Assembly: GCF_015354315.1 (NCBI RefSeq)
Contig: NZ_JADKYY010000002.1
Span: 124,001-188,000 of the forward strand
Direction of reading: 5' to 3'
DNA length: 64,000 nucleotides
Origin: Planobacterium oryzisoli
Lineage (GTDB): Bacteria; Bacteroidota; Bacteroidia; Flavobacteriales; Weeksellaceae
In this document: positions 1,072-55,951 of the stretch, in pieces
How positions within the stretch are numbered: the stretch's first letter is position 1
Layout of the letters: each line of letters begins with the position of its first letter
Program-made: the position numbers and the translations under genes
Notes under the pieces: model-generated
Database searches by the model: none
Told to the model about the DNA's origin: nothing
The model's input: only the letters and a program-made list of their open reading frames with translations

Positions 1072-1180
1072 CTTTATTTAATTGACTTGGAAAAGTGCTG
1101 ATTAAGACGCAAAGGAGCGTGCAAAATAGCTTAAACAGTAGTTTTATGTCGAGTTTATGAGAGGAGAACCAAGTACTTTC

Positions 1181-1197
1181 TTTAACATTTTTTTAAC
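1181..1197 (+). promoter_or_regulatory. Direct repeat TTTAAC-N5-TTTAAC upstream of the moxR-bat operon
   Basis: TTTAAC occurs at 1181-1186 and 1192-1197, an 11-bp period. The identical pair with the same period stands upstream of batC (6084-6100), and the reverse-complement form upstream of the susC gene (49045-49074). Direct hexamers one helical turn apart are the typical site of OmpR/PhoB-type winged-helix response regulators (known for E. coli PhoB and B. subtilis PhoP). The second repeat ends 71 bases before the moxR ATG. No clear -7 element was found between the repeat and the gene. Confidence 0.5.
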
Positions 1198-1267
1198 TAA
1201 CCGTTGGCACCCTTTGTGTTGACTAGTGCGTGGATTTATCGCAAATTTACCATTCAAGAATAAAAGT

Positions 1268-10858: not shown

Positions 10859-11431
10859 CTAAATAATATGAGGATTCCAATTTGCAGCGATTTTGGGAGT
10901 GATTTCATGTGCAACAAAGTAATCACTAATCTCTTTTAGAAGCTCTTCATAGGTTATTTGCGTAAGCCTTTCGTACGAGATCTTGTAACCTAAATAAATC
11001 GTCTTGGTCTTGAAATCACCAGCAGCAAGAACGATGGGCACTTTAGCACTTAATGCCATGTGGTAGAAGCCCTTGCGCCATTTTGGAACCCAACTCCTTG
11101 TGCCTTCTGGAGTAATCACTAGACTGAAGCTATCCTTTTCAAATTGCTTAGTCACAAAATTCACTAAATCGTTTTTTTGCGATCGATCGATACCAATTCC
11201 TCCTAAAGCCTTCACAACTGATCCATACCAAGCTTTTGTATGCTGGTCTTTAATTATTACCTTCAGTGGTTTACCTAACTTCCAATAGGCTAAATTACCC
11301 AATATGTATTCAGAATTGTGGGTATGAGGAGCTACCACCAAGATACACCGGTTAAGATTATCTGCATCTCCGTGCAAAACCACTTTCCATCCCACTATTT
11401 TAAGAAGCAGAGCCCCAATAATTTTCTTCAT
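10859..11431 (-). CDS. PlsC-like acyltransferase with a variant HX4E motif
   Basis: The 190-residue protein belongs to the lysophospholipid/glycerol-phosphate acyltransferase superfamily. Motif I reads APHTHNSEY, that is H36-X4-E41 in place of the canonical HX4D; motif III is TPEGTRS at residues 108-114. There is no long N-terminal membrane anchor beyond the first hydrophobic stretch. Similar stand-alone proteins acylate lysophosphatidate or ornithine-type lipids. It ends 1 base before the thioesterase start. A strong hairpin with a T tract lies 20 bases upstream of its start, which may attenuate or stabilise its message. Confidence 0.78.
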   Translation of the reverse strand: MKKIIGALLLKIVGWKVVLHGDADNLNRCILVVAPHTHNSEYILGNLAYWKLGKPLKVIIKDQHTKAWYGSVVKALGGIGIDRSQKNDLVNFVTKQFEKDSFSLVITPEGTRSWVPKWRKGFYHMALSAKVPIVLAAGDFKTKTIYLGYKISYERLTQITYEELLKEISDYFVAHEITPKIAANWNPHII

Positions 11432-11451
11432 ATAGAGATTTTAAAACAAAA

Positions 11452-11479
11452 AAGTATAACCATAAGAATGGTTATACTT
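11452..11479 (-). terminator. Perfect 12-bp hairpin with T tract between the small ORF and the acyltransferase
   Basis: 11452-11463 and 11468-11479 are perfect inverted repeats (AAGTATAACCAT/ATGGTTATACTT) around a 4-base loop. On the minus strand the hairpin is followed by TTTTGTTTT, the form of an intrinsic terminator. It lies 28 bases after the stop of the putative 20-residue ORF and 20 bases before the acyltransferase ATG. A TATATTTG -7 element on the minus strand (11489 to 11482) would start transcription inside the hairpin, so the structure might instead be a 5' end of the acyltransferase mRNA. Confidence 0.6.
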
Positions 11480-11506
11480 CACAAATATATTGAAATATTG
11501 ACGCTC

Positions 11507-11569
11507 TTAAAATAAACTACTAACGAAATCCATTATTTTGATAACGATCTCAATAACTACCTGTACCAT
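11507..11569 (-). CDS. Putative 20-residue amphipathic peptide
   Basis: An ATG at 11569 opens a 20-codon frame, beginning MVQVVIEIVIKIMDF and ending in VSSLF then TAA. Hydrophobic residues alternate with E7, K11 and D14, giving an amphipathic or membrane-inserting helix. It lies alone between the terminator of the PspC gene (11650-11697) and the hairpin at 11452-11479. A one-mismatch -7 element (TATCTTCG, 11606 to 11599) is placed upstream on the minus strand. No homologue is known to me; a small RNA without translation, or a leader peptide of the acyltransferase, are alternatives. Confidence 0.35.
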   Translation of the reverse strand: MVQVVIEIVIKIMDFVSSLF

Positions 11570-11649
11570 AGTGAATTTAGATTTTGTGTTTTGATTTGAC
11601 GAAGATAATACAATCTGTATTTAAATAAAAGAAGTTAATGTTAATTTTT

Positions 11650-11697
11650 AAAAAGGAGCAGGCAAGGAAAACTTGAACAATTAAAACCTCACCCGCT
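11650..11697 (-). terminator. Intrinsic terminator of the padR-pspC operon
   Basis: On the minus strand the arms at 11697-11687 and 11667-11657 pair over 11 positions (three G-T wobbles) around a 19-base loop and are followed by CC and TTTTT. It lies 13 bases after the PspC-domain gene stop at 11710, the expected place for the end of that transcript. Confidence 0.6.
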
Positions 11698-11709
11698 GCC
11701 AAATCACAA

Positions 11710-13392
11710 TTACTTAGTTTTAATGGATATTTCTTTTTCGCCGTTGTTAATTTGAATGTTCAAGTTTTTCATTTCATCCAAATCAATATTTAAAGAGTCG
11801 AGCATCTTTTCTGCTTGGGCTTTTGGATATTTACGATCATTGATAATGATACTGTCTTTGTCGTTAGAATCGTAAGAGATTGTTTGGCCGTTAATTATTA
11901 CCTTATCCTTTTCGATTTGTATGCCCGAATTATTAATAGATTCTTCCGACTCATCATCCACATTGATACCCCATTCTTTTAGTTTAATAATTTTCATTGT
12001 GCGTGGAACCACAAGTTCATAATCCAATCGATAGTCCCGGAAGCGATCTTTGTAATCGTACCGAAAATAGTTGGGGAAAGAGATAGTATTGCCTGATATT
12101 TTTAGCGGAACATCCATGTTTAGCGGATGATTGTATCCGTCAGCTCTTTTCTTAAGTACTATATAGGGTTCCTTAATGTCCTCCCTTTTCACTTCCACAT
12201 AGATGTGATCTTCCTTGAAGATAGACTTTCCGTCTGAGTACACATCGTCCCAGTATGATTTGAAATTGGCAGGGATTGTAACTTTGTTTATATCTAAAAG
12301 TAAGGAATCAGACTCTGTAGTGATTGCGACGTTTTGCGTCTCTTCATTTTCTCCACTATACTGAGACTTATACTTAAGTGCACTAAATCCAGCTGCAGAA
12401 CTTAAGGCAATCCAGATAAGTGCTAAAGCTCCAATTACATATCCGGTGTTATTAAGTTTGGTTTTTGGAGAAAATAGTTTAATTGCTATATAGCAGAATA
12501 TCAGGGCAGGTATAAATAAGGTTAGAAAACCTAAAGCAACGACTAAAAAACCTAAGTTGCTGTCCTGGAGGTAAAACCCAAGATTGTCAAAAAAGTTTAT
12601 ATCACCGCTGCCAAAAGCGCTCACTCCAAATACTGCGAAAGAACTTAAGAGAAGAGACCCTCCAATGAAGGCGAAGAAGGCTCCGACGATATAACGGAAC
12701 ACATTCCATATACTGCTTCCTGCGCGATTGATGTAGGGTTTGTTTTCATTGTAAATTTCGCCTACTCGTTGAGTGGATTCGTTTGCAAACTGTACTATTT
12801 TAGTAGATTCTTCCTTTAGATTATCGAAGTTTACTGGTTTACCTTTCATCTTTAAAAAATCTGAAGCTGTCTCTGCTTTGGGCAGAACAATCCAAAGGAT
12901 TATATAAAGAAGTACCACTACAGTAGTTGAAATTGCTGCAGTGAAAAGCCCTAAAATTGCTATTATAAGCCATATCGCACGCATTAAAGTAATATCCATT
13001 CCCGTATAGTGTGCAAGTCCCGCACACACCCCGGCAATCTTTTGCCTTTCCGGATCGCGGAATAATTGCCTCTGTCCATTATAGGTTGTGTTTTTTGTTT
13101 TATTGGAAGTGGTTTGGGAATAGTACGCTTCTTCTTGTTCTTCGATAACTTCTGGTCTTCCAATTTGGTTTACAACGCGATCTACGTCTTCGGCATTGAT
13201 TACTTCTCTTTTTCCAAGTGAATCTTTGAATATTTCCACCATGCGAATTTCAATGTCGTGCATAACCTCATCAGCTTCTGAAGCCTCAAGAGAATTTCGA
13301 AGTGCTGATAAATAGTCGCTCAGTTTTATGTAGGCATGTTCCTCAATAATGAAGGAAAATCCTGCAAGTCCAATTGATAGTGTTTTGTTCAT
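11710..13392 (-). CDS. PspC domain membrane protein
   Basis: The 560-residue protein has an N-terminal cytoplasmic region of about 100 residues (SDYLSALRNSLEASEADEVMHDIEIRMVEIF, like HAAS/DUF1700-type helical segments), then a PspC domain at about 108-172 (RQLFRDPERQKIAGVCAGLAHYTGMDITLMRAIWL). Several further membrane helices follow between about 225 and 345. The C-terminal domain of about 200 residues (from 350) resembles a beta-rich adhesin-like or DUF4097-like region and ends with ionic repeats. PspC proteins sense envelope stress. It lies 5 bases after a PadR regulator gene, the common flavobacterial pairing. Confidence 0.83.
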   Translation of the reverse strand: MNKTLSIGLAGFSFIIEEHAYIKLSDYLSALRNSLEASEADEVMHDIEIRMVEIFKDSLGKREVINAEDVDRVVNQIGRPEVIEEQEEAYYSQTTSNKTKNTTYNGQRQLFRDPERQKIAGVCAGLAHYTGMDITLMRAIWLIIAILGLFTAAISTTVVVLLYIILWIVLPKAETASDFLKMKGKPVNFDNLKEESTKIVQFANESTQRVGEIYNENKPYINRAGSSIWNVFRYIVGAFFAFIGGSLLLSSFAVFGVSAFGSGDINFFDNLGFYLQDSNLGFLVVALGFLTLFIPALIFCYIAIKLFSPKTKLNNTGYVIGALALIWIALSSAAGFSALKYKSQYSGENEETQNVAITTESDSLLLDINKVTIPANFKSYWDDVYSDGKSIFKEDHIYVEVKREDIKEPYIVLKKRADGYNHPLNMDVPLKISGNTISFPNYFRYDYKDRFRDYRLDYELVVPRTMKIIKLKEWGINVDDESEESINNSGIQIEKDKVIINGQTISYDSNDKDSIIINDRKYPKAQAEKMLDSLNIDLDEMKNLNIQINNGEKEISIKTK

Positions 13393-49044: not shown

Positions 49045-49074
49045 TTGTTTAATGATTGTTAAAATTTTGTTAAA
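49045..49074 (+). promoter_or_regulatory. Triple 11-bp-period repeat (TTGTTWAA) upstream of susC: candidate Pho-type box
   Basis: TTGTTTAA (49045-49052), TTGTTAAA (49056-49063) and TTGTTAAA (49067-49074) start exactly 11 bp apart. On the minus strand they read TTTAACAA, close to the B. subtilis PhoP box TTAACA-N4..6-TTAACA and of the same period as E. coli PhoB boxes. They precede the operon's -7 element by 22 bases. A second pair of direct repeats (AACGCT at 48974 and 48984, 10-bp period) lies further upstream. Confidence 0.6.
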
Positions 49075-49096
49075 GGCCACCGGCACTCGTGCAAAG

Positions 49097-49104
49097 TACT
49101 TTTG
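49097..49104 (+). promoter_or_regulatory. -7 promoter element for the susC operon
   Basis: TACTTTTG matches TAnnTTTG exactly and ends 17 bases before the GTG at 49122. It lies downstream of the earliest in-frame start (49089), which supports the later start. The nearest TTG (49067-49069) is 27 bases upstream, too far, consistent with an activator-dependent promoter. Confidence 0.5.
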
Positions 49105-49121
49105 TAAAAAAATTATTAATT

Positions 49122-52100
49122 GTGAAAAAGCAAGTACAAGCAGTACTAATGGTCGTGGCCACAGGTTTACTTCCGACCGTCAGTGCGCAGCAAATCAGAG
49201 ATTCGGTAAAAGAGAAGCAAATTGAAGAAATTGTAGTTACCGCATTAGGAATTAAAAGGGCTGACCGTTCCTTAGGATATGTGGCTGAAACGGTGGGATC
49301 GGAAACCTTTGAGCAAACCCAGAACAATAACTGGGCACAATCGATGGAGGGTAAAGTTGCGGGCTTAAAAATCCAGACAAGTGGTGCTGGTCCCCTTGGA
49401 TCAGCAAGAATAACGCTAAGAGGTGAAAAATCTATGCAAATGGACAACAATTATGCTCTGATTGTTGTGGATGGAATTCCTTTAAGCGATGGCCCTAGAG
49501 TAAACTCAGGTACCGGGACACCTGCATACGGTGCCGGTTCCGGAGGAGATCTTCCCATTGATTTAGGAAACGGGCTGAACAGTATCAACCCAGACGATAT
49601 AGAGTCGGTTACGGTTTTAAAGGGCGCGTCTGCAGCAGCGCTGTATGGCTCGCGGGCGGCCAACGGAGCATTGATGATAACCACAAAATCAGGGAAGAGC
49701 CGTAAAGGAAAAATGCAGGTAAGCTTAAATTCGTATACTTCTTTTGACAGTGTCTTAAAGTGGCCTGACTATCAATATGAATACGGACAAGGAACTCTTC
49801 AAAAGAACAAACAGGGTGATTTCTATTATTCCTACGGGGCCTCAGCCGATGGGGTTAACACCGGTTCAACCAGCAGTGCTTATGGCCCAAAATTTGAGAA
49901 TCAATACTATTTCCAGTACGATCCTTTAGTACAGGGACAAAGCGCTGAAAGGCAGCTATGGAGACCCTACCGAGATAATATAAAAAGTTTCTGGGAAGTG
50001 GGATCTACATACTCCAATAATCTTGCTATAGAGCATTCCAATGAGCGAACAAGTTTTCGCTCATCCCTTACGTTTTTGAAGAATGAATGGATGATGCCCA
50101 ATACAGGTTTTGACAGACTAAATGTGGCACAATCCATATCTCATAAGCTATCAGATAAACTTAAGATAAACACGAAACTTTCCTTTAACCGTACAAAAAG
50201 TGACAATCTTCCCGCTACGGGCTACAACAACCAATCGATTTCGTATTTCATGATCTTTCAAAATCCTAATGTGGATTTAGGTTGGTACCGCCCAATTTGG
50301 AAAAAAGGGCAAGAAAATGTCGATCAGATACATCCGTTCAGTTCGTACATAGATAATCCGTACCTCATTGCCTACGAAATGCTCAATGGAGTGGACAAAC
50401 GTCTCTTTACTGGAAACATTTCGGCGGATTACCAGATTACGGATAATTTAAGTTTGTTACTTAGATCCGGTGTGGAAATGCTCAATGAAGTCCGCACTAC
50501 AAAAAGGCCGTACAGTTCTGCCAATTTCAGACAAGGCTTCTACCGCGAACAGTACATAAAGAATCAAGAATACAATAACGATTTACTACTTACGTACAAA
50601 AACCAATGGGGGAAGCTCAATTTAAACTCCTCGGTGGGAGCAAGTATTAGGTACAATGAGTATGTAATGAATGATTATCGTGCGGAAGGTTTACGGCTTG
50701 CAGGAGAATATAGTCTGAATAATGCAATATCATTACTCACAAAAGTTCCCAAACCATTTGACGAACAGGTGAATAGTATGTATGGTCTTCTGAGTCTGTC
50801 CTACAACAATGTGTTTTTTGTTGACGTCACAGGACGGAACGATTGGAGTAGTACCCTACCAAAGGCCAATCGTTCCTTCTTCTATCCGTCGGTCAGTACA
50901 AGTGTAATACTCTCTGAAGTGTTGAACCTTAACGAGCGCAGCTTGTCGTTTTGGAAACTGCGGGCCTCCTGGGCGGAGGTAGGAATAGATGGGTCTCCTT
51001 ACCAATTGGATAAGTATTATTCACCCAGTGACTTTCCGGGAAGCGTCACTATGCCAAACACCTTTGCTAATCCCGGTCTAAAACCCGAGAAAAACAACAA
51101 CCTTGAGGCGGGAATGGACCTGGGTTTTTTCAGGAACCGTCTTAATTACAGTTTTACACTCTATGAGAATAATACCGAAAATCAGATTCTTTCCATACCT
51201 GCTCTTTATGAATCCGGCTACTCGTACAGGATTATAAATGGAGGTAAGATACGTAATAGGGGAGTGGAAATGACCTTGGATGCCACAGTGGCCAGGTCCA
51301 AGTATTTTACGTGGAAGACTTCTGCGAACTGGTCTTTGAATAGAAACCGTATTCTCACCCTACCTCCTGAGTTCGGTTCCGAGCCCTATACCATGTCAAG
51401 CGTTGGAGGTGTAGTATATTTCAATGCAGTGGTTGGAGGCTCCTTAGGGGATTTATACGGCTATAAGTTACTGCGAAACGATAAGGGTGAAGTGGTATAC
51501 GGAGAGAACGGACTTCCTGCCCGACCTGCCAATATTGAAAAGGTGGGTAATGCTTTTGCAGACTGGAGGGCTGGATGGCAAAACGATTTTAGATATAAAA
51601 ATTTTACGCTTAGCTTTTCATTTGATGGTCAGTTGGGCGGAATGGCCTACTCACAGTCCCACCACAAGATGTCGGAGCAAGGAAAATTGAGACACACATT
51701 GATGGGAAGGGACAATCCCAATGGTCAGATCGTAGGGGAAGGAGTAGTACTTACCGCAGATGGTTCCTATGTGGCTAACACCAAGCCAGTATCATTAAGT
51801 TCGTACTACGGTGATTATTACCGACGAGCTAATGTCGAGACCAACACTTTTGATACTTCTTTTATAAAGCTGCGCGATGCCCGCATATCCTTCTCTTTTC
51901 CGAGAGAAGTCACTCAGGAACTGGGACTAAACGAAATAACAATGGCCTTATTTGGCAAAAACCTCTGGATGTGGACGGAATACCCTCTATTTGATCCTGA
52001 GGTAGCAACCCTTGATAACAGTACTATTACTCCGGGCGTGGAAATCGGACAATTACCTAGTGCCCGTACCGTTGGATTTCAACTGAATGTTAAATTTTAA
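49122..52100 (+). CDS. SusC/RagA-family TonB-dependent outer membrane transporter
   Basis: The roughly 992-residue protein starts at GTG (49122) with a signal peptide (KKQVQAVLMVVATGLLPTVSAQ). A TonB-box-like EIVVTALGIKR, the plug domain (ALIVVDGIPLSDGP, SINPDDIESVTVLKGASAAALYGSRAANGALMITTKSGK, the SusC signature) and a 22-strand-type barrel ending in VGFQLNVKF follow. Unlike many SusC proteins, it has no CarboxypepD-like domain before the plug. It imports a bulky substrate with the SusD partner that follows. The neighbouring phosphoesterases hint at organophosphate rather than glycan. Confidence 0.93.
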   Translation: MKKQVQAVLMVVATGLLPTVSAQQIRDSVKEKQIEEIVVTALGIKRADRSLGYVAETVGSETFEQTQNNNWAQSMEGKVAGLKIQTSGAGPLGSARITLRGEKSMQMDNNYALIVVDGIPLSDGPRVNSGTGTPAYGAGSGGDLPIDLGNGLNSINPDDIESVTVLKGASAAALYGSRAANGALMITTKSGKSRKGKMQVSLNSYTSFDSVLKWPDYQYEYGQGTLQKNKQGDFYYSYGASADGVNTGSTSSAYGPKFENQYYFQYDPLVQGQSAERQLWRPYRDNIKSFWEVGSTYSNNLAIEHSNERTSFRSSLTFLKNEWMMPNTGFDRLNVAQSISHKLSDKLKINTKLSFNRTKSDNLPATGYNNQSISYFMIFQNPNVDLGWYRPIWKKGQENVDQIHPFSSYIDNPYLIAYEMLNGVDKRLFTGNISADYQITDNLSLLLRSGVEMLNEVRTTKRPYSSANFRQGFYREQYIKNQEYNNDLLLTYKNQWGKLNLNSSVGASIRYNEYVMNDYRAEGLRLAGEYSLNNAISLLTKVPKPFDEQVNSMYGLLSLSYNNVFFVDVTGRNDWSSTLPKANRSFFYPSVSTSVILSEVLNLNERSLSFWKLRASWAEVGIDGSPYQLDKYYSPSDFPGSVTMPNTFANPGLKPEKNNNLEAGMDLGFFRNRLNYSFTLYENNTENQILSIPALYESGYSYRIINGGKIRNRGVEMTLDATVARSKYFTWKTSANWSLNRNRILTLPPEFGSEPYTMSSVGGVVYFNAVVGGSLGDLYGYKLLRNDKGEVVYGENGLPARPANIEKVGNAFADWRAGWQNDFRYKNFTLSFSFDGQLGGMAYSQSHHKMSEQGKLRHTLMGRDNPNGQIVGEGVVLTADGSYVANTKPVSLSSYYGDYYRRANVETNTFDTSFIKLRDARISFSFPREVTQELGLNEITMALFGKNLWMWTEYPLFDPEVATLDNSTITPGVEIGQLPSARTVGFQLNVKF

Positions 52101-52110
52101 TAAACCAGAA

Positions 52111-53562
52111 ATGCGAATACACTATACCAAATTTTTAGTTCTTATACTAGCTACGTTGCTTTTTTCCTGCGACCGTACTATGGAGCAGATCAATACCGAT
52201 ACGAGTCGTATCAAAACTCCAACGGCGGGCAGTCTGCTTGCACCTATTCAGTACGAAATGTCTACCTATGGGTACAACCGTGCAGACGATTTTACTTTCC
52301 AATTGATGCAAGTAGCACTTCCCTTTCCAAATGAGGGCAACACCCTAAGCCGTTATTATATGACGGAAAGCACTGGGAATGGCTATTGGAATACAAGCTA
52401 TAAATGGCTCAAACAAGCGCGCGAAATGCAAATGTATGCGCAAAAGGAGCAGAACAATAATTACTACGCCATAGCCTTGGTTCTCGATGCTTGGATCAGC
52501 TCAAACCTGACGGATGCTTTTGGGGATATTCCTTATTCGGAAGCACTACGTCTAGAAGATAATATTATGCAGCCTAAGTTCGATCATCAGAAAGATATTT
52601 ACATCCAACTTCTTAATGATTTGGAAAAAGCTAATGGACTATTCGATACCAGCAAACCACTGAACGATTTGGATTTATTCTACCAAGCAGAGCAGTCGGC
52701 ACAGGGTATCTTAAAGTGGAAGAAATTTGCCAATTCCTTATCGCTTAGACTTTTGACCCGAATACTTGCACGTGAGGGAGAAGTGAATGTCAAAGAACGT
52801 ATTCAAAAAATTGTAAACAACCCGGCACAGTATCCCATTTTTACATCGGTGGATGATGGGACAAAAATCCACATTTCTGGTCAGGCTCCGTACTTACCAC
52901 CATTAGCACGGCCTCAGGACTTTACTTCGTACAGGGCTGCAGGTGCATTTTTTGTTGAACTTCTTACTGCAAATAACGATCCGCGGATAAGCATGTTTTT
53001 CACCCAGGCACGTTCGCTTGCAGACAATAAAACCATAGGGTTTAAAGGCGCTCCATCGGGTTATGCGCTGGGAACCGTATTTGATTTTCAGCCCTCCAAC
53101 TTGAACCAAAACCTTGCTAAAGCTCCCCTTACGGTGCTCGTGTATCCTTACGCCGAATTGCAGTTTACATTAAGTGAACTCGCGCTACGAGGAATAATTA
53201 GTGGGGATTCTAAGCAGTTTTATAATGAAGGAGTTCTTGCTACCTTAGCGGAATGGAAGCAGTCAGTGCCTGAAGACTATTTAGAGAATCCTGTGGTCGC
53301 TTTTGATGGTACACTGTCCCAGATAATGACCCAAAAGTATATAGCGTTGTTTTTTGTGGACCACCAACAGTGGTATGAGCATCGTCGTACCGGATATCCG
53401 AGGCTTCCTAATAATGGTGGACTCTTTAATGACGGAAAAATGCCTAAGAGGATGCAGTATCCTACGAATCCCCGCATAATGAATACATCGAACTACAACG
53501 AGGCAGTGAGTCGCCTAGGATCTGATGATATTAACCTACCTGTATGGTGGAATAAACCCTAA
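52111..53562 (+). CDS. SusD/RagB-family substrate-binding lipoprotein
   Basis: The 483-residue protein has a lipoprotein signal peptide (LVLILATLLFSC, Cys near residue 20) and the SusD-like (SusD_2-type) helical TPR features: MEQINTDTSRIKTPTAGSLLAPIQYEM, ALVLDAWISSNLTDAFGDIPYSEAL, and the closing YPTNPRIMNTSNYNEAVSRLG. The open frame extends to 52087 but the ATG at 52111 precedes the signal sequence. It is the surface lid of the SusC transporter. The ligand is not readable from sequence. The next gene starts 4 bases later. Confidence 0.92.
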   Translation: MRIHYTKFLVLILATLLFSCDRTMEQINTDTSRIKTPTAGSLLAPIQYEMSTYGYNRADDFTFQLMQVALPFPNEGNTLSRYYMTESTGNGYWNTSYKWLKQAREMQMYAQKEQNNNYYAIALVLDAWISSNLTDAFGDIPYSEALRLEDNIMQPKFDHQKDIYIQLLNDLEKANGLFDTSKPLNDLDLFYQAEQSAQGILKWKKFANSLSLRLLTRILAREGEVNVKERIQKIVNNPAQYPIFTSVDDGTKIHISGQAPYLPPLARPQDFTSYRAAGAFFVELLTANNDPRISMFFTQARSLADNKTIGFKGAPSGYALGTVFDFQPSNLNQNLAKAPLTVLVYPYAELQFTLSELALRGIISGDSKQFYNEGVLATLAEWKQSVPEDYLENPVVAFDGTLSQIMTQKYIALFFVDHQQWYEHRRTGYPRLPNNGGLFNDGKMPKRMQYPTNPRIMNTSNYNEAVSRLGSDDINLPVWWNKP

Positions 53563-53566
53563 TTAT

Positions 53567-54307
53567 ATGAACGTATTTCTCCTCTTCTTTCTTATTTCTG
53601 GAATGTGTCTACAGGCACAAACCAAAATTATTGCCCACCGTGGACATTGGACCGTAGAGGGATCGGCACAGAATTCCATAGCCTCATTAAAACGGGCAGG
53701 ATCGCTTCCTATTTACGGAACTGAGTTTGATGTTCACTTAACTAAAGACCAAGTCCTTATACTTAATCACGATCCTGTATTTCACGGTAAAGCTATTTCG
53801 GATCATTCGTATTCCGCTTTAAGGCGGTCGGGCCGTTTAAGTAATGGGGAGGCTCTTCCACGCCTTGCACGTTTCTTTAGAGTGGCTAGGAGGTATCCTA
53901 ATTTAAAATTAATTGTGGAATTAAAGCCTGGACCTACCCAGCTACAGGAAAAATTGCTCGTTGAAAAGACGCTGGAACTAGTGAAAAGAAAGAGACTAGA
54001 GAGCCGGGTAGAGTACATCTCCTTTAGTGCCAATGTCTGCAGGGAATTAAAACAACAAAACCCTGCCAGCAGTGTCCAATACTTACGCGGAGATCTTTCT
54101 CCCATAGAGGTACAACAGAATGGATGGAATGGCATAGACTACCATTTCAGCCTGTATCAGAAGAATGAAAAGTGGAGTGCGCAGGCGCGCTCGATAGGAC
54201 TTACTACCAATGCATGGACAGTAAATGATCCAAAAATTTTTAATCAATTGGTAGAGCTTGGTGTAGAGTATATCACCACCGACTACCCAAATAAATTTAC
54301 AAAATGA
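53567..54307 (+). CDS. Glycerophosphodiester phosphodiesterase, secreted
   Basis: The 246-residue TIM-barrel enzyme has a signal peptide (MNVFLLFFLISGMCLQAQ) and the GDPD motifs IAHRGHW (catalytic histidine), GTEFDVHLTKDQVLILNHDP (acidic metal ligands and second histidine) and LIVELKPG. It cleaves glycerophosphodiesters to glycerol 3-phosphate and alcohol, in the periplasm. The usual RGxxxxAPENT reads RGHWTVEGSAQNS here, a mild variant. It follows susD by 4 bases and overlaps the metallophosphatase by 4. Confidence 0.9.
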   Translation: MNVFLLFFLISGMCLQAQTKIIAHRGHWTVEGSAQNSIASLKRAGSLPIYGTEFDVHLTKDQVLILNHDPVFHGKAISDHSYSALRRSGRLSNGEALPRLARFFRVARRYPNLKLIVELKPGPTQLQEKLLVEKTLELVKRKRLESRVEYISFSANVCRELKQQNPASSVQYLRGDLSPIEVQQNGWNGIDYHFSLYQKNEKWSAQARSIGLTTNAWTVNDPKIFNQLVELGVEYITTDYPNKFTK

Positions 54308-55902
54308 AACATTCTATAATGCGATTACTTTATTTGGCGCTAATAACCGCCAGTATTTCAGTATATAGTCAGCAAGAGCTGAAAGGCACCGTCTATTTAG
54401 ATACTAATAAGAACGGGATATTAGACCGTGGAGAAAAAGGATTGGGAGGCGTTGGTGTATCCAATGGAAAAAATGTAGTTATTACTGATAAAAACGGCGT
54501 TTATTCCTTACCTGTAGGGGCGGAGTCCAGTGTATTTGTGATCAAGCCCAGTGGATTTTCCACCCCTTTGAAGAAGGGTAATTTGCCTGATTTTTACTAC
54601 CATTACAAACCTAATGATTCCTCTAAGGAATTTAAATTTAAAGGAACTCCTGCTACTGGTAAATTACCCCGTTCAGTGAACTTCGCTCTATATCCGCAAA
54701 CTGAAGCAGAAGAATTTCAAATACTCGTATTTGGAGACCCGCAGCCCTATACAGAGCATGAGATGGATTATTTTCGCCGAGGGATTATAGAAGAAGTACG
54801 TAGAAATCCAAGAAAAGCTGTATTTGGTATAAGTCTGGGAGATTTAGTAGGTGATGATCTCTCTCTGCATCCCTCCTATATCCGTTCTGTGGAAAAACTT
54901 GAAATGCCGTGGTACAACGTTATTGGAAACCACGACATGAATTACGATGCAAAGCAGGATTTCTTATCGGACGAAACATTCGAGCAGCATTTCGGACCCT
55001 CCACCTATGCTTTCAATTATGGCAAAGTCCATTTTGTCATACTTGATAACATTTTGTATCCGGATCCGCGTGATCAAAAGGGCTATTGGGGTGGTCTTAG
55101 AGAGGACCAACTACAGTTTATTGCACAAGATTTGCAGCATGTTCCCAAGGACCACCAGATAGTAGTTGCTTTCCATATTCACTTGAAAATTGAAGACCAG
55201 GACAACCCCCATTTCAGGATTTCTGACAGAGACCGTTTGTTTGAGTTACTTAGCCCCTTTTCCAAAGTGCTGCTACTTTCTGCCCATACCCATAAGCAAG
55301 AGCAGATATTCTATACTAGAAAAGAAGGTTGGTTGGGTGCCACTCCTCTGCATGAGCTTAATATGGGTACTACCTCTGGAGATTGGTATTCAGGTACTGT
55401 AGATTCAACGGGTGTTCCATTGTCGGTAATGCGTGATGGTACATACCGTGGCTATTCATTTATTGATTTTTCACAGAAAGGTTATAATGTAGATTATAAG
55501 GTTGCGGGTAAACCGGATGATTTTATGGTGGAATTGCACGTACCGAAGGTTATTACCAGGACCAGAAATTCTGCACGTTTCTTTGCCAATTTCTTTACTG
55601 GTGGAGCGCACGATACTCTAGAATATAGAATAGACCAAGGTGAATGGAAAAAAATGACAAGGGAAGTTTCATATGATCCTGCTTATGTGAGTGACGTACT
55701 CATGTGGGATACAGTTGAAAAGTTGCCGGAAGGTAGAAGGCCGTCCAATCCTGAAGTTTCCACCCATTTATGGAGTGCTGGATTTCCGCGTAACCTTACG
55801 GTAGGTGATCACCTTGTTGAAGTTCGCGCCACGGACCGCTACGGTAAAACTTTTAGTAACACCCAAAAGTTTTTAGTCCAGGAACTTCAGCCTATCCCCT
55901 AA
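54304..55902 (+). CDS. Calcineurin-like metallophosphatase with N- and C-terminal accessory domains
   Basis: The 532-residue protein begins with a signal peptide (LLYLALITASISVYSQ), an N-terminal beta-sandwich domain (GTVYLDTNKNGILDRGEKGLGGVGVSNGKN, an SdrB-like/MetallophosN region, residues 22-125), a metallophosphatase core with GDPQPY, SLGDLVGDD, VIGNHDMN, AFHIHL and SAHTHKQ (dimetal ligands D, N, H), and a C-terminal MetallophosC domain (TGGAHDTLEYRIDQGEWKKM onward). It overlaps the GDPD gene by 4 bases. Together with GDPD it suggests release of phosphate from exported or imported phosphodiesters. Confidence 0.9.
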   Translation: MKHSIMRLLYLALITASISVYSQQELKGTVYLDTNKNGILDRGEKGLGGVGVSNGKNVVITDKNGVYSLPVGAESSVFVIKPSGFSTPLKKGNLPDFYYHYKPNDSSKEFKFKGTPATGKLPRSVNFALYPQTEAEEFQILVFGDPQPYTEHEMDYFRRGIIEEVRRNPRKAVFGISLGDLVGDDLSLHPSYIRSVEKLEMPWYNVIGNHDMNYDAKQDFLSDETFEQHFGPSTYAFNYGKVHFVILDNILYPDPRDQKGYWGGLREDQLQFIAQDLQHVPKDHQIVVAFHIHLKIEDQDNPHFRISDRDRLFELLSPFSKVLLLSAHTHKQEQIFYTRKEGWLGATPLHELNMGTTSGDWYSGTVDSTGVPLSVMRDGTYRGYSFIDFSQKGYNVDYKVAGKPDDFMVELHVPKVITRTRNSARFFANFFTGGAHDTLEYRIDQGEWKKMTREVSYDPAYVSDVLMWDTVEKLPEGRRPSNPEVSTHLWSAGFPRNLTVGDHLVEVRATDRYGKTFSNTQKFLVQELQPIP

Positions 55903-55921: not shown

Positions 55922-55951
55922 AAAGGCTGCTCTCTCATAGGGCAGCCTTTT
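55922..55951 (+). terminator. Bidirectional intrinsic terminator after the susCD operon
   Basis: AAAGGCTGC (55922-55930) and GCAGCCTTT (55942-55950) form a perfect 9-bp stem with an 11-base loop and a T run. The mirror sequence on the minus strand also ends in T-rich DNA, so it may serve the convergent E1 gene too. Confidence 0.8.

Follow-up and report, generated by a model that had tools for sequence, protein, structure and literature searches.

A predicted phosphate utilisation operon of Weeksellaceae with a candidate Pho box at its susC promoter

We analysed a 64-kb stretch of DNA, referred to here as the window (C12:124001-188000), from the 2.1-Mb, 99.98% complete genome of a Chryseobacterium-like bacterium. 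Four consecutive genes lie on its forward strand. The first (49122-52100, GTG start) encodes a 992-aa SusC/RagA-family TonB-dependent outer-membrane transporter matching TIGR04056 (512 bits), TIGR04057 and the Plug domain, and the second (52087-53562) a SusD-like surface lipoprotein (SusD-like_2; PF12771, E=4.8e-109) which carries the lipobox FSC and matches solved SusD homologues. These are followed by an exported glycerophosphodiester phosphodiesterase (GDPD; PF03009) at 53525-54307, which shows the usual AHRG, EFD and NHD motifs, has 3no3 as its closest solved structure (E=6.8e-65) and probably starts near 53567 (MNVFLLF). The last gene (54304-55902) encodes an exported metallophosphoesterase with MetallophosN/C domains (PF16371/PF00149/PF16370), whose metal-site motifs GDPQ, GDLVGDD, GNHD and AHTH are largely invariant among 11 orthologs. 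An earlier, sequence-only reading of this DNA had described a susC-susD-GDPD-metallophosphatase operon, and its gene families are borne out by the HMM matches.

Since the genes overlap or abut (52087 before 52100; 53562 and about 53567; 54304 before 54307) and a 12-bp terminator-like hairpin lies at their end (55922-55950, forward strand), they are likely to form a single transcript. The flanking genes on either side have the opposite orientation, which makes this a closed four-gene operon. Its immediate neighbours are ligA, a dehydrogenase E1 gene and a peptidase S46 gene; neither CAZymes nor an HTCS regulator, the linked genes that mark a glycan PUL, were found in the operon or in these neighbours.

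Upstream of susC, at 49045-49077 on the forward strand, we identified a candidate Pho box composed of three 11-bp units, TTGTTTAATGA, TTGTTAAAATT and TTGTTAAAGGC. The TTGTTWAA motif starts at 49045, 49056 and 49067, confirming the three copies at exact 11-bp intervals that had been noticed earlier. After a gap of 20 nt follows TACTTTTG (49098-49105, forward strand), a Bacteroidetes-type -7 element (consensus TAnnTTTG) situated 23 nt past the third TTAA. The sequence-only reading had also likened the reverse complement of the repeat to the PhoP box of Bacillus, which in B. subtilis consists of TTAACA repeats. The likeness holds for the TTAACA-like units, but the reverse complement is not needed, as the coding strand itself reads as a Pho box; the pstS promoters of relatives have TTAACA-N5-TTAACA on the coding strand.

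Exact tandem TTGTTWAA pairs with an 11-bp period occur in the whole genome only as the two overlapping pairs at this locus and as one pair at C4:3642, which precedes a cytochrome/actA-like gene and is too near its own -7 element for the same geometry. When up to two mismatches were allowed, the window gave 4 matches against 0.98 expected, with zero mismatches at the 49045 locus only. No other site in the genome matched the full pattern (three TTAA with an 11-bp period, then 23 nt, then TAnnTTTG) as well as this locus, which has 1 mismatch. Looser full-pattern matches in this genome occurred near the rate of a mirrored control and therefore carry no weight by themselves; two-unit patterns with mismatches matched as often as their mirrored control and were not used as evidence.

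Among 59 relatives, our genome included, the search found the metallophosphoesterase in 12 and gave two more weak matches; ten of the 12 loci were retrieved for comparison of their promoters. All seven sampled Weeksellaceae relatives without ECF control carried 11-bp-phased TTAA (sometimes TTCAT) units before susC. The shared geometry is TTAA-N7-TTAA-N7-TTAA-N22/23-TAnnTTTG, in which the spacer sequence drifts, and the array together with the 22-23 nt spacing was observed in 8/8 Weeksellaceae operons, the window included. At a score of at least 15, these 8/8 susC promoters compare with 17/250 upstream regions of neighbouring genes (Fisher 2.5e-9). At 16 or more, 12/250 controls remained, all but one of them Pho-type genes or homologues of operon genes: they include four pstS, one porin, and GDPD, metallophosphoesterase and susC genes of one genome that was counted twice. 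Because nearly all of these high-scoring upstream regions belong to pstS, a porin or such homologues, the control is conservative.

An independent scan of named genomes yielded 80 loci, mostly from Chryseobacterium, 79 of which could be scored. At least 16 of the 18 core positions were kept in 79/79 operons of this group, although these genomes are related and hence do not represent 79 independent events. Sliding the period to 9, 12 or 13 gave 1, 0 and 1 operons, respectively; period 10 also scored often, since further units run through. Most spacer columns were less conserved than the TTAA columns.

Homologous SusCD-metallophosphoesterase operons of two relatives (G010 and G028) contain an ECF sigma gene and a FecR-like gene, both assigned from sequence and not by HMM, and their susC promoters lack the array. 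This may represent a regulatory swap. A Pho box at the ECF genes themselves was considered and discarded as not convincing (score 14, matrix at most 10 bits).

These two operons also bear on the possibility that this is a SusCD operon of the usual kind, directed at glycans or peptides and induced by its substrate, whose two phosphoesterases have other targets, for example teichoic-type or phosphorylated glycans. SusC and SusD families are mostly importers of glycans or peptides, members of the GDPD family can act on other diesters, and the SusD protein has many invariant aromatic residues, all of which would suit such a function. We nevertheless regard it as very unlikely: the operon has no glycoside hydrolase, peptidase or HTCS gene, the same cargo stands under ECF sigma/FecR in the two relatives, as in PUSI and PUSIII of Flavobacterium, and the Pho-type promoter is conserved.

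We built a matrix of 33+8 columns from promoters of pstS, of porins and of genes divergent from phoB, all in other genomes; susC sites were not part of it. In the 64-kb window it ranked 49045 first with 24.5 bits; the next independent site reached 18.0 bits, and the best of 20 block-shuffled windows 18.5 bits. Across 277 kb of sequence of the same genome, the top sites were those of the phoB-divergent receptor (30.5 bits, a value that is not independent as orthologues are in the training set), an array at C1:53298-53353 preceding an 88-aa acidic hypothetical protein (26.3 bits) and the 49045 operon. TTAA-rich sequence is common in DNA of 41% GC, and this, along with the near-control rate of loose matches, would be expected if the repeat were a chance AT-rich array bound by no regulator. 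Such an origin is most improbable and strongly disfavoured by the data, since 79/79 and 8/8 orthologous promoters keep the array while the spacer drifts, and a matrix trained on other genes places 49045 at the top.

An unbiased two-unit scan of the 59 genomes produced matches at pstS promoters (G018, G027 and G013) and at promoters of PhoD-like phosphatase, nucleotide pyrophosphatase/phosphodiesterase (NPP), endonuclease/phosphatase-family, Na/Pi cotransporter and porin genes, with unrelated genes among the matches too. Scores of at least 15 were reached by 4/6 true pstS promoters (p=5e-4) and by 19/30 phoB-divergent receptor promoters (p=2e-12). Distant PBP paralogues other than PstS had no array, most of them scoring 11-14 and one 15. 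Over 396 genomes of the order, we counted about 100 perfect triple boxes against 6 for the mirrored control. For two families of these (f11 and f15), 13 loci were read, and at 12 of them the boxes stand before porins (Porin_O_P or porin-like), a Na/Pi cotransporter or PstS; some of the porins were assigned by likeness to listed neighbours and not by an HMM match of their own. Perfect triple boxes of Chryseobacterium precede the receptor that stands before GDPD-susCD, and also an exbB/tolQ-like gene; before this gene, many Chryseobacterium have a perfect triple array of TTAAG units with an 11-bp period and an unchanged distance to the -7 element. Since the boxes are thus found before non-Pho genes as well, the pattern alone is not specific. 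PafA was also considered as a Pho marker and set aside: only 4/30 of its promoters scored at least 15, which agrees with the report that its expression is constitutive.

The sequence-only reading had proposed to ask whether the repeat is shared with known Pho genes of the same genome. No PhoU domain and no true PstS were found in this genome. Within it, the sharing with established Pho genes is limited to two cases: a phased box is present at the TonB receptor divergent from its phoBR genes, and its NPP gene also scores for the box; pstS, porins and Na/Pi cotransporters provide the shared cases in relatives. The promoter of pafA, a constitutive-type phosphatase gene of this genome, has no box, which is expected because PafA is reported to be expressed independently of phosphate (PMC8812569). 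At C14:136809, an array conserved in three genomes precedes a TonB-dependent receptor, a possible further Pho target. Taken together, the sharing with Pho genes, the conservation and the matrix lend support to the regulatory part of the earlier proposal, and the identification of 49045-49077 as a candidate Pho box is well supported by sequence.

Three OmpR-family regulators are encoded in the genome. One, at C12:83221, adjoins a histidine kinase and is divergent from a TonB receptor and a 388-aa lipoprotein. Its recognition helix, RTIDVHIRRLR, differs by one I/V change from that of E. coli PhoB (RTVDVHIRRLR, residues 193-203), and it is the only one of the three with a helix of this type. Its best NCBIfam model is PhoB, at 200.9 bits under a curated cut-off of 296. 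These phoBR genes (C12:83221-84900) are located about 90 kb upstream of the operon. In the receiver domain of PhoB (11222-11896 of its locus), GGNDYVVKVIKPK stands where E. coli has GADDYITKPFSPK. As PhoBR is kept in a genome without PhoU and true PstS, Pi must be sensed in a way that does not involve the Pst-PhoU complex. The arrangement of receptor and lipoprotein genes next to phoBR matches the Pi-induced phoBR cluster of Flavobacterium johnsoniae, in which the counterpart of the receptor, judged by its place beside phoBR, belongs to the genes induced by Pi depletion (PMC8115612). The pstC promoter is a binding target of PhoB in Bacteroides fragilis (PMC3547664).

Another of the regulators, at C14:185968, has RprY as its best NCBIfam model (298.7, under a cut-off of 370). 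An 11-bp period is common to regulators of the OmpR/PhoB family and is not unique to PhoB. The box might thus be bound mainly by this RprY-like regulator, in which case the operon would follow an envelope or redox signal and phosphate genes would be touched only indirectly. Data from Riemerella anatipestifer can be read in this sense. The DAP-seq motif of its 'PhoP' has a conserved TTTAACA, likened by the authors to the ArcA motif (PMC9603813), and the qPCR primers used for 'PhoP' translate to GEEGLK, GYQLGAD and KGQGLG (PMC5399024), matching the RprY-type pair of our genome (DGEQGLK, GYQIGAD, KGQGLG) and not PhoBR. In the Riemerella mutant, pstS and a RagB gene went up by over 4-fold (PMC5399024), and genes of this sort may therefore be targets of RprY. 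Going by the primers, Riemerella 'PhoPR' appears to be an RprXY-type pair, and the name may mislead. This work supplies the only motif data we found for the family and concerns another regulator; we accordingly dropped the DAP-seq motif as direct support for PhoB.

Against binding mainly by RprY, the recognition helix at C14:185968 (RSMDVYIAKLR) differs from that of PhoB, the array with its 22-23 nt spacing tracks pstS, phosphate porins and the phoB-divergent receptor, and the TTTAAC repeat before moxR in the window does not have this geometry. We therefore consider it unlikely. The moxR repeat itself, TTTAACATTTTTTTAACTA, lies in the promoter of the moxR-bat operon (window 1178-1199) and is an 11-bp TTTAAC repeat like the Riemerella 'PhoP' motif; Riemerella 'PhoP' is reported to bind the moxR promoter. 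A broader and more speculative idea, to which we give limited credence, is that in Weeksellaceae a single class of 11-bp TTAA array serves both of the paralogous regulators PhoB and RprY, which would integrate phosphate starvation with envelope/redox signals at common boxes before SusCD phosphate systems, with sister lineages rewired to ECF sigma/FecR.

Control by PhoB is the interpretation that we prefer. It is quite probable that the operon is a phosphate utilisation system (PUS), in which SusC-SusD and two phosphoesterases are placed in one operon under PhoB through the 11-bp array. PhoB binding and a Pi response of the operon are what we infer from the promoter. Under phosphate starvation, PhoR would phosphorylate PhoB, which would occupy the tandem array of three 11-bp half-sites and bring RNA polymerase to the -7 element, with the array in the role of a -33 element, as is the case at other PhoB-activated promoters. 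SusD would then capture and SusC import a phosphodiester ligand, our best guess being glycerophosphodiesters or lipid-headgroup fragments; in the periplasm, GDPD would split the diester and the metallophosphoesterase would free Pi. The organophosphate ligand is suggested by gene content and by published PusCD systems, and these, together with the promoter, point to phosphodiester scavenging. Most likely, the operon is turned on by phosphate shortage, and its products draw phosphate from organic molecules instead of taking up sugars. Annotation usually treats SusCD pairs as importers of sugar; an explicit, portable rule (three TTAA with an 11-bp period and TAnnTTTG 22-23 nt further on) would flag phosphate-dedicated SusCD operons from sequence in Weeksellaceae and the families related to it, would tie PusCD directly to PhoB and would offer a simple promoter assay.

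The array has the features of a Pho box: 11-bp tandem half-sites upstream of a core promoter, shared with established Pho genes, in a genome encoding PhoBR. As in E. coli, the half-sites lie just upstream of the core promoter and the recognition helix is nearly identical; the half-site core is TTAA(A/C) or TTCAT here, in three or more units, and TGTCAT in E. coli, and the core element is the Bacteroidetes -7 in place of -10. The PhoP box of B. subtilis likewise has TTAACA-like units with an 11-bp period, in another phylum and with another sigma factor. The B. fragilis study (PMC3547664) also concerns a Bacteroidetes PhoRB that binds a pst promoter, and gives no binding motif. The Riemerella 'PhoP' motif TTTAACA (PMC9603813) comes from the same family and has a similar core; its regulator is an RprY-type paralogue and not a PhoB orthologue. 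Our search, which covered open-access literature, turned up no definition of a Bacteroidota Pho box, and neither 'promoter' nor 'pho box' occurs in the main text of PMC8115612.

The closest parallel is PusCD of F. johnsoniae, which was already known (PMC8115612). PusCD, which occurs with phosphodiesterases, is induced by low Pi in Flavobacterium (PMC8115612); for this system, too, import of a phosphorus-containing ligand is putative. There, too, SusCD pairs (PUSI and PUSII) stand beside periplasmic phosphoesterases (pf00149 and pf16670 in PUSI) and serve P acquisition, and a sibling TonB receptor and lipoprotein are found beside phoBR. The present operon resembles a PUS in its adjacent SusC-SusD pair, its co-localised phosphodiesterase and phosphomonoesterase and its lack of CAZymes. 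It differs in its SusD (PF12771, against PF07980/PF14322 in F. johnsoniae) and in its enzyme set of GDPD and MetallophosN/C. Each of PUSI, PUSII and PUSIII contains ECF sigma or FecR genes, whereas the present operon has none and carries its candidate Pho box right at the susC promoter; what is new is this direct Pho-box promoter taking the place of the ECF/FecR switch, together with a Pho box made explicit for this group.
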